Shown here in pieces: positions 52,481 to 54,902 of a stretch of 64,000 nucleotides of DNA. The notes beneath the pieces were generated by a model. That model did no database searches. It worked only from the letters and a program-made list of their open reading frames with translations, and was not told where the DNA came from. Numbering within the stretch: the first letter of the stretch is position 1; each line of letters begins with the position of its first letter. The translations under genes and the position numbers were made by a program. The DNA comes from Sporobolomyces roseus. Its lineage: Eukaryota > Basidiomycota > Microbotryomycetes > Sporidiobolales > Sporidiobolaceae. The DNA lies in assembly GCA_016617785.1 (NCBI GenBank), contig JADILM010000001.1, positions 620,001 to 684,000 of the forward strand. The letters run 5' to 3'.

Positions 52481-53981
52481 ATGCTCGTTCTCTCGTGTCC
52501 GCTTCGCTCCTACCCTTTCTCTCTCGTCTCGTTTGTTTCTCCAATCTGTGTGCTCTGATTCTAGCAGGCTCTCGTCTCACAACCCTCAAGGCGCCAATCT
52601 TCGAAGTCGACCCACTTTGGTGCTGGCCACGCCGCGGAGTCTTTCGGAGGTTGTGAATGCGTTATCTCTCGTCGTTTCAAACTGCTTCCCTTCTGCCTCT
52701 TCCACTTCACCTTGTATGGCCGGTATATTCAGGCGCAGAGGAAACGGTCCGACCGTGCAGGAATTGTCGAGGGTAGAGATAGAAAACGGGGATTCGTGAG
52801 TTCTTCTAAAGCTGATCGACCCTGCTGCAGATAGACTAATCTAGTCGAGCGCTACGAACAGGGACGATAGCGTTCACTCTTACAAACCCCGCCGTCGCAA
52901 ACGGGATGCTTTCGTACCCGAGTCTCGTTTAGGGAAGGACCAGAATCCGGTTCGCTTTCTTTCTTTCTATTGCTCGCATGCCAAGCTGAACTTCATGCGT
53001 TCTATACTTGTGTAGAAGCGATGGCTTATGCCACTTCCCGACTCCGGGTACCTTAGCGATTACATTAGTCAGCAAGTAAGTCGACTCGACGAGGTATTCG
53101 GCTTGTCGTGCATCAAGTACTGACACTTTGCGAGTTGTCAAACAGCCTCAGATACACAACTTCAACCCGAAGGAACCGCACAATACGAATGAGACTACTG
53201 CATTCAGAATTCGTGTCCGTAACGAAGCGTATCGACAATATTGTGCTCAAATCGGAGACGCTTACTTTGATAAAGCAGTAGGCCTCTCTCATTTCCGCAA
53301 AACACATAGCCATGCACTGACTTGCATCGCGCTTCACAGTGTGCCTTTGCGAGTGGAGTACTGCCAGAATGGCAACAGTTTGTCAAAGGCAAAGATGCGC
53401 CGAACGATGAACACAATGTAAGTTGCTCGTTACTCGAGCTGCTCTCAGCATATCTAGTCTAACATCACGGCTCTTTTGCAGCTCCTCCGTCCTGTAGGCC
53501 CCGCCTTGCTCGCTTCCTCATTACGATGCATCGGTCAACGATTTCTGCTCTTCCGAAACAGGACTTGAGCAAAGAGCAACAATACGAGCGAAACCTAGCT
53601 GCGCCGGTCGACTATCTCATCTCGAAGTATCTACAAGCGGAAGACCTGCAAACGGAACCCTTCAACAACGCTCGACAGGTGCAACAAGCTCGAGAAGACC
53701 GCTTGTCAAAGATGGAGGAAATTCTCGAGCGAGCATCACACGGACTCCATGAGCTCAAACAGCAGGCGGTACCCAAGCGAATCTCCTATGGCTTACCCGA
53801 GATTGCGAGTCATTCGGTGAGTTCGTTTCCCACCGTACTCTCAGTGAAGCTGAGCAATAGCCTTTTCCAGCTTTTCGAAAACAACGTCGTACCAACTCAA
53901 GGCCAGGGAACTCGCACACCGTCAACTGGAAGTAGACACCACAGGTCGTCGGATCGATCATCCCCGACGATCGCTTGTTGA
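52481..53981 (+). CDS. Orphan protein C, all-phase-0 introns and a 12-nt exon
   Basis: Eight well-supported exons (52565-52795, 52845-52949, 53016-53075, 53146-53277, 53340-53417, 53482-53493, 53562-53816, 53871-53981), all multiples of three, encode about 327 residues. A first exon starting at the ATG at 52481 is likely but its donor is unclear. Features: a basic cluster (YKPRRRKRDAF), a globular middle (FRIRVRNEAYRQYCAQIGDAYF; GVLPEWQQFVKGKD) and a coiled-coil-like segment (RQVQQAREDRLSKMEEILE) near the C-terminus. I recognise no family. Exon 6 codes only for LLRP. The last 24 bp overlap the 3' coding end of the Hv1 gene on the other strand. Confidence 0.5.
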
Positions 53982-54902
53982 GCGACGACTTGGCAAGCGA
54001 GCTGGCGCCACAAACTGGCTCTCGACTTCTTCTTCTCCTTGACTATCCGTTCCCTGTTCCAATTCCCTCACTCTCCTCCTCAGTCTCTCTACTTCTCCTC
54101 TCCATTCTTCTCTCTCCGCTTCCCATCTTTCCCCTTCGATCGGACTCTCTTCACTCGCTCTCTTCCCTTGTTTTCTCTTTTTCCTCTTTTCTTCCTCCTC
54201 CTCGAATTCGTGTACCTCTTCCAGACTTGCCAACAGCTTTATCACTCTCCACAGTCTCAATATAATTAGTAACGAAGCTACCGACTCCAGTGGACCCTGA
54301 TTTTGGAATCACACTCGGGTCAGCTCAGCGTTTCGAAATGGTGAGGAAGCGTGAGATTTCGAACGAACCTGCGCGCCTACAGCGAGGATGAACGCTCCGA
54401 TTATCACAATCGCGTCAAAGAGATGTAGGAACCAATGTTCAGCGTGATGAGGGAGAGGGAGGTAGTAGGTGATTCCGAAAGCGAGCAAATCCGCTGGTAT
54501 CTCGAGAATGAAGAACCCTACAGTTTCGTTCATCTGTCAGGATGCGTCACACGCCGACGAGAGCGAAGGCGTACCAGTGATGAACAGCGAGAAATATTCG
54601 AATAGCTCGAGGATGACTGAATCTGAAGGACAGCTATTTGTGCAGATACAGCTCGAGTCCTTGAGGTAGTCCGCGAGGATTGAGGAGATCGAGAAGATAA
54701 ACTCGAGGCAACTGAGAGCGATAATAGCTGAGCCCGAATGGATCGTCAGCAACCTTTCGAAGCCCGACGAAGAGAGAGAAGCCTCACTCCAATGCCACTG
54801 AGAGGTATCGAGTGCGTGAGCGAGAAACGCTTGAAGCCGCTTGTATGGGGCGCCGTCGTTCGGAGGGACGAGGGGGAGATAGGGCTGTCGTTTCTCGAGC
54901 AT
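53958..54902 (-). CDS. Voltage-gated proton channel, Hv1/HVCN1 family
   Basis: Three exons (54902-54575, 54517-54369, 54296-53958) give 271 residues. Four transmembrane segments form a lone voltage sensor. S1 is about residues 55-80. S2 contains FFILEI (Phe112 and Glu115, matching the human charge-transfer Phe and Glu153). S3 is LFDAIVIIGAFILAV (Asp144, matching human Asp174). S4 is LLIILRLWRVIKLL (Arg173, Arg176, Lys179). The S4 RLWRV sequence is diagnostic. A long Glu/Arg/Lys C-terminus (about 190-250) is a predicted dimerising coiled coil, as in animal Hv1. Known role: voltage- and pH-gated proton exit through the plasma membrane. There is no pore domain, so it is not a cation channel fragment. 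The start chosen is the first in-frame ATG. Confidence 0.88.

Follow-up and report, generated by a model that had tools for sequence, protein, structure and literature searches.

Can a voltage sensor that carries Glu instead of Asp at the proton selectivity site, and that has also lost a second acid typical of Hv1, still work as a proton channel? This question is raised by a gene within C1:620001-684000 of the 22.4-Mb, 15-contig Sporobolomyces roseus genome, a stretch of 64,000 nucleotides (nt) that we call the window. The gene lies on the minus strand (54902..53958), with its ATG at 54902 and its stop codon at 53960..53958, and its four exons encode a spliced product of 251 amino acids (aa). 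It had been described earlier, from the letters alone, as a fungal Hv1 proton channel with Glu at the human Asp112 position and Lys as third S4 charge (the original prediction). Here we propose, with a probability of roughly 0.64, that Glu47 of this fungal Hv1 takes the filter role of Asp112 and partly offsets the loss of the acid at the human Asp185 site, giving a predicted proton-selective channel.

The Asp112 and Asp185 sites across homologues

Fold and family are well supported by sequence comparison. Single-sequence phmmer returned the solved Hv1 chains 5OQK and 3WKV as the top two PDB matches of the window protein, and the family profile ranked 3WKV first and 5OQK third. The homologue search matched fungal Hv1 proteins, and several of its 22 matches carry names such as voltage-gated hydrogen channel 1. 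These matches, to a voltage-sensing domain (VSD) without a pore domain, bear out the earlier description of a fungal Hv1 with a four-helix voltage sensor. For the homologue P0025, rather than for the window protein itself, a predicted model likewise comprises S1-S4 only and matches solved VSDs. S4, given earlier as LRLWRVIKLL, does read LRLWRVIK (Arg153, Arg156 and Lys159) and fits the fungal motif R.WR..K. Human Phe150, Glu153 and Asp174, the charge-transfer residues, were correctly said to be kept and align with F92, E95 and D124. The S3 acid typical of Hv1 at the Asp185 site is replaced by Ala135; we kept the protein within Hv1 because changes of D185 in human Hv1 alter gating, not selectivity.

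The residue at the human Asp112 site is Glu47 (codon GAG), so that the mid-S1 selectivity site retains an acid. A 15-row profile ran gapless through S1 against 3WKV, its Asp/Glu column falling on the mouse Asp, and a 43-row MAFFT alignment also set Glu47 on human Asp112. The other S1 sites are Ser51 (human Val116), Ser54 (Glu119) and Asp58 (Asp123). The original prediction was right about the Glu and overlooked Ala135 at Asp185, Ser54 at Glu119 and Ser51 at Val116.

We surveyed these residues in 43 rows, namely the window protein, human Hv1 and 41 homologue matches; 35 of them show both site 112 and site 185. Where 112 is Glu, a neutral residue stands at 185 in 6/6 rows, and where 112 is Asp, 185 is acidic in 29/29 rows, including human and the alga Chlorella. 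The 185 residue in the Glu rows is Ala in the window protein, the metagenome protein P0001 and S. ruberrimus, Thr in S. salmoneus, and Ser in S. phaffii and S. carnicolor. Among the eight rows without a visible site 112, four are acidic at 185 and four are neutral (P0002, P0030, P0038 and P0039), the latter grouping with the Glu rows in the tree. Site 185 is thus neutral in 10/43 rows, window included. Near-duplicates among the rows are P0030 with P0037, and P0035 with P0039.

Ser at site 116 was found in all six Glu rows and in one Asp row (P0041). The Glu119 site is Ser in the window protein and P0001, and Asp, Glu, Gln or Ala in the other visible rows, with Ala in P0024 (S. salmonicolor). 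P0001 shares SCLEF and FILA with the window protein and is 97% identical to it in the exons, which supports the reading against chance or base error more than it adds breadth. The breadth of Glu at site 112 comes from four named Sporobolomyces species, to which the window protein shows 54-61% identity over the aligned VSD. S4 is visible in five Glu rows: four of them read R.WR..K, and S. ruberrimus has R.WK..K. Lys occupies R2 in P0035 (S. ruberrimus) and in P0039, and P0005 (S. blumeae) has Met at R1. The S. blumeae protein is short (180 aa), has the S4 sequence LMLWRVIK and sits on a long branch (1.18); it may be a divergent or mis-modelled channel.

Gene structure, third S4 charge and Zn2+

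The features of the gene are as follows.

54788..54902, minus strand: exon 1, coding for the N-terminal tail from the start codon to where S1 begins (..SQWHW), aligned with relatives
54728..54787, minus strand: intron 1, 60 nt, in frame and without a stop; GTGAGG donor, GCTGACG branch-like site, CTCAG acceptor
54575..54727, minus strand: exon 2, S1 (Glu47, Ser51, Ser54, Asp58), Cys-rich S1-S2 loop CICTNSC and first part of S2
54702..54704, minus strand: Glu47 codon GAG, selectivity-filter position (human Asp112) by profile alignment to 3WKV
54518..54574, minus strand: intron 2, 57 nt; among the enumerated donor/acceptor pairs, the one keeping the whole of S2 in frame; homologues are gapless there
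54369..54517, minus strand: exon 3, remaining S2 (Phe92, Glu95) and S3 (Asp124, Ala135 at the Asp185 site)
54381..54383, minus strand: Ala135 codon GCT, human Asp185 position by profile alignment to 3WKV
54297..54368, minus strand: intron 3, 72 nt, in the S3-S4 loop; chosen among possible splices as gapless to relatives
53958..54296, minus strand: exon 4, S4 (Arg153, Arg156, Lys159), linker, charged C-terminal tail with a heptad-like stretch at about 197-220, stop

The residue numbers depend on intron 1. A 271-aa gene model, in which exon 1 is read straight through, was rejected since it retains the 60-nt in-frame intron 54787..54728. Read as protein, this intron gives a 20-residue stretch before S1, SEASLSSSGFERLLTIHSGS, which is absent from 9/9 named Sporidiobolaceae homologues (P0003, P0004, P0005, P0023, P0024, P0025, P0035, P0036 and P0037). 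With the intron spliced out, the window protein reads WHWTIIALSCLEF and aligns without a gap with WHWTIIGLSVLDF of Rhodosporidiobolus azoricus. P0001, itself an unspliced translation, is identical to the window protein at 98/101 residues of the two following exons and at 11/20 of the intron-1 stretch, where it begins V-R-L. These letters would correspond to the GTG AGG donor in another frame, and the intron of P0001 would then measure 61 nt, a length read from protein letters that is not translatable in frame. Homology thus points to removal of intron 1 and hence to a 251-aa protein. The residues Glu67 and Lys179 of the original prediction are real, and their numbers fit the 271-aa reading, in which the start of S1 was mis-spliced and intron 1 kept as protein; after splicing they are Glu47 and Lys159. 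At the position of intron 3, P0002, an unspliced metagenome translation, carries an insert.

With the homologue P0003 as query, a search of the genome returned this Hv1 locus alone among its best candidates, as two exon matches. A second Hv1 copy was rejected, one candidate place having been scored among those best candidates. The charged tail contains the heptad-like WEAEREEWRGEVERLRRRVRELEQ (residues 197-220), which can be aligned to the tails of P0002, P0003, P0024 and P0035, and a long C-terminal coiled coil is plausible from the sequence and its relatives. The S1-S2 loop (54630-54650, minus strand) holds three cysteines, C65, C67 and C71 (CICTNSC). C67 and C71 do not vary among the 7 rows of a Sporidiobolaceae alignment, and S. 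carnicolor lacks a counterpart of C71. At the outer end of S1, these cysteines may form a disulphide or link subunits.

The Lys at the third S4 charge is present as predicted (Lys159), but it is not a peculiarity of this channel. Of the fungal or unnamed rows in which this site is visible, the window row among them, 40/40 have Lys, and this residue is reported as standard in fungal Hv1 (PMC7910559) and as the rule with one fungal exception that has Gln (PMC10377628); we therefore rejected it as a novelty. Nor does the predicted change in gating slope follow from it, since the Suillus luteus and Aspergillus oryzae channels SlHv1 and AoHv1, which both have this Lys, are reported to have a gating charge of ~5, as in animal channels (PMC7910559). 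The predicted change in Zn2+ response fared similarly. Two tested fungal channels are reported to be poorly blocked by Zn2+, which the authors ascribe to missing Zn-binding histidines (PMC7910559). The His140 site is Glu82 in the window protein and is His in 0/36 fungal or unnamed rows showing it, and the S3-S4 loop of the window protein reads without a His. A weak Zn2+ block is to be expected from this sequence, as a general fungal trait rather than as a property special to this channel.

Next to the Hv1 gene lies a convergent open reading frame (ORF; 53526-53981, plus strand). Its coding sequence would run 24 bases into the end of the Hv1 gene (stop at 53958), in a tail-to-tail overlap. The ORF apparently contains an in-frame intron-like stretch (GTGAGT...CAG), and its pieces gave no Pfam matches. 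No tRNA genes or Rfam families were found in the window.

Proposed mechanism, ancestry and alternative explanations

The window protein would fold, probably as a dimer, into a voltage sensor of four helices that lacks a pore domain, with protons passing through the centre of the sensor itself. Depolarisation and an outward proton gradient would move S4 outward and start conduction, and Glu47 would pair with Arg156 (R2) at the filter in the open state, excluding other ions. Because the 185 site is Ala135 and the 119 site is Ser54, Glu47 would be the main outer countercharge, together with Asp58 at the mouth. We hypothesise that the two changes offset each other in part, the longer side chain of Glu probably making up for some of the loss of the 185 acid. 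By analogy with human Hv1, the two halves of the double change should act oppositely on gating. D112E is reported to open at more negative voltage and about 5x faster (PMC8804609), and D185 changes to shift opening strongly to positive voltage, by +65 mV for D185A in an R1H background, with selectivity unaltered (PMC5065317). D112E itself is described as resembling the wild type in selectivity (PMC5065317), as proton selective together with EtHv1, an insect channel with natural Glu (PMC8804609), and as changing the coupling between the inhibitor sites of the two subunits (PMC4568520). The sequences show the gene, its homology-based splicing, the residues and how these are distributed together; we infer proton selectivity from these human and insect channels, and all other function, dimerisation and the physiological role are predictions. 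Judged from its sequence, the protein is most likely a functional, proton-selective channel whose gating is shifted and whose block by Zn2+ is weak; the voltage range should be changed, and perhaps also the dependence on outside pH.

Such a channel would relieve the acid and charge load of NADPH oxidases. FAD_binding_8 matches seven places in the genome, and two of these were looked at further (C1:4654747-4654965, minus strand, and C5:764309-764494, minus strand). Both are NADPH-oxidase-like FAD domains (WHPFTISSAP and WHPFSITSAP) whose best solved-structure match is human cytochrome b-245 heavy chain (NOX2), with E-values of 1.6e-27 and 8.3e-20. The usual Hv1 partner, known here from its domains, therefore seems to be present.

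Several points weigh against the proposed mechanism. We know of no current from any member of the Glu group. The Pfam Ion_trans match reached 24.5 bits, just below the cut-off of 25, and covers the VSD part only; a Foldseek search on its own gave no matches at E <= 0.001. Aligned as a single sequence by phmmer to human and mouse Hv1, the window protein takes a one-residue gap in S1, which places Ser51 and not Glu47 opposite Asp112. Asp112 and Asp185 are reported as selectively conserved in Hv1 and predicted to be necessary for activity (PMC5065317), neither acid is present in the non-conducting relative HVRP1 (PMC4148356), and EtHv1 keeps an acid at 185 and so gives no precedent for the double change. 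The ancestry of the pair also belongs here. Three trees were built, all without the columns of sites 112, 116 and 185. In the 43-row maximum-likelihood tree, S. blumeae, which pairs Asp at 112 with an acidic 185 site, came out within the Glu group at weakly supported nodes (92/47 and 97/40), and each of sites 112 and 185 was counted as changing twice on this tree. S. blumeae also falls in the same clade as the Glu species in a genome tree, which clouds the number of events. Moreover, the pair is effectively confined to one lineage, a pattern for which drift or hitchhiking can account; the co-occurrence is striking and is not statistical proof of coupling.

A single clade of the ten Glu/neutral rows was not rejected in the 40-row set, from which human, P0041 and P0034 had been dropped (p-AU, from the approximately unbiased test, 0.265). 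When S. blumeae (P0005) was left out too (39 rows), the ten rows formed a clade with support of 98/94, divided into one part with the window protein, P0001 and P0002 (96/82) and another that joins three fragments to the four named species (100/98). In the reported genome tree (PMC12093110), one clade holds S. pararoseus, S. salmoneus, S. carnicolor, S. ruberrimus, S. phaffii, S. koalae, S. roseus and S. blumeae, and a second clade has S. salmonicolor with S. johnsonii. As S. blumeae lies inside the former, the pair arose after its split or S. blumeae reverted. The Glu/neutral pair probably arose within this S. blumeae-containing Sporobolomyces clade.

The explanation that competes most directly keeps a fairly ordinary working fungal Hv1 and treats Asp-to-Glu at 112 and the loss of the 185 acid as neutral drift in a lineage whose outer vestibule is under relaxed constraint, with neither compensation nor special physiology. 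The wild-type-like selectivity of human D112E agrees with it, as do the variation at other sites (Lys at R2 in P0035 and P0039, Met at R1 in P0005, Ala at 119 in P0024) and the dinoflagellate channels that are likewise reported to lack Glu119 (PMC5298346), and each change may be a single event on one branch. However, Glu and a small neutral residue at 185 (Ala, Ser or Thr) have been kept together at 54-61% VSD identity, and a lone D185 change is reported to move the opening of human Hv1 by tens of mV (PMC5065317). We regard drift as unlikely, though serious enough to be kept in view. A voltage sensor that conducts protons poorly or not at all, acting as a sensor like HVRP1/TMEM266, is considerably less probable. 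In its favour, two acids reported as selectively conserved in Hv1 are altered, and Ser also replaces the acid at the Glu119 site; HVRP1, reported as non-conducting, carries Val at site 112, and the changes listed as correcting its mismatches to Hv1 include M185D (PMC4148356). Against this, the filter carboxylate is present in 6/6 Glu rows with the S2 F-x-x-E and the S3 Asp kept, S4 is R.WR..K in 4/5 visible Glu rows and R.WK..K in S. ruberrimus, and proton-selective conduction is reported for human channels that bear just one of the two changes (PMC5065317, PMC8804609).

The phmmer gap would favour an S1 register off by four, with Ser51 at the Asp112 site, a filter without an acid and an expected anion leak. 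We did not follow this register because the relatives are gapless, including the Asp-bearing R. azoricus protein, the profile is gapless to 3WKV and the 43-row MAFFT alignment agrees; the Glu also lies mid-helix in the predicted model of P0025. It is very improbable, and no alignment, the phmmer register included, places an Asp at the S1 selectivity site. Returning to Glu47 as the filter acid, a further-reaching form of this proposal is tentative, with somewhat less than an even chance. It holds that a Sporobolomyces lineage has rebuilt the outer countercharge system of Hv1 around a filter Glu that replaces the Asp112/Asp185 pair, the channel staying proton selective and delta-pH gated although it lacks the S3 acid reported for other Hv1 channels; in the branch of the window protein, the filter Glu would stand in for Glu119 too. 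Asp112 and Asp185 are picked out as acids peculiar to proton channels, and both are proposed as part of a countercharge model for delta-pH gating, which is itself described as not yet understood (PMC5938591). A lineage with one acid swapped and the other lost, beside relatives keeping both, offers natural channels for testing the role of each acid in selectivity, voltage range and pH sensing.

Comparison with known channels

Natural Glu at the filter has been reported for stick and gladiator (polyneopteran) insects and for large Limulus channels (PMC10377628, PMC8804609), and for none beyond these in the open-access literature searched. All fungal Hvs are stated to have a highly conserved S1 aspartate (PMC7910559), so a fungal Glu is an exception to that printed statement. 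At site 185, Glu is reported in a dinoflagellate channel and in coccolithophore channels (PMC5298346, PMC3119654), and the open-access literature searched reports no natural conducting Hv1 with a neutral residue there.

Compared by description, SlHv1 and AoHv1 share with the window protein a VSD without a pore, the motif R.WR..K, a Cys near the outer end of S1 and the lack of Zn-binding histidines, but they differ from its Glu in the S1 Asp of fungal Hvs (PMC7910559). The agaricomycete homologues share 27-35% identity with the window protein; their residue at 112 is Asp, and at 185 they carry Glu (Asp in Coprinopsis). Close counterparts are P0025 (S. salmoneus), P0035 (S. ruberrimus), P0036 (S. 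phaffii) and P0037 (S. carnicolor), which are named only hypothetical or uncharacterised protein in the database. Like the window protein, they have the Glu filter and Ser116, with Thr, Ala, Ser and Ser, respectively, at 185. They keep Glu at the 119 site, in contrast to its Ser, and P0035 has Lys at R2. EtHv1 also has a natural Glu at the selectivity position and is reported to be proton selective, but it has acids at 185 (E136) and 119 (E69) and an R.WR..R motif, whereas the fungal Glu group combines a neutral 185 site with Lys as third charge. Finally, HVRP1/TMEM266 resembles the window protein in having an Hv1-like VSD whose 185 site is not acidic; it is described as non-conducting with Val at the 112 site (PMC4148356), whereas the window protein keeps the filter carboxylate.
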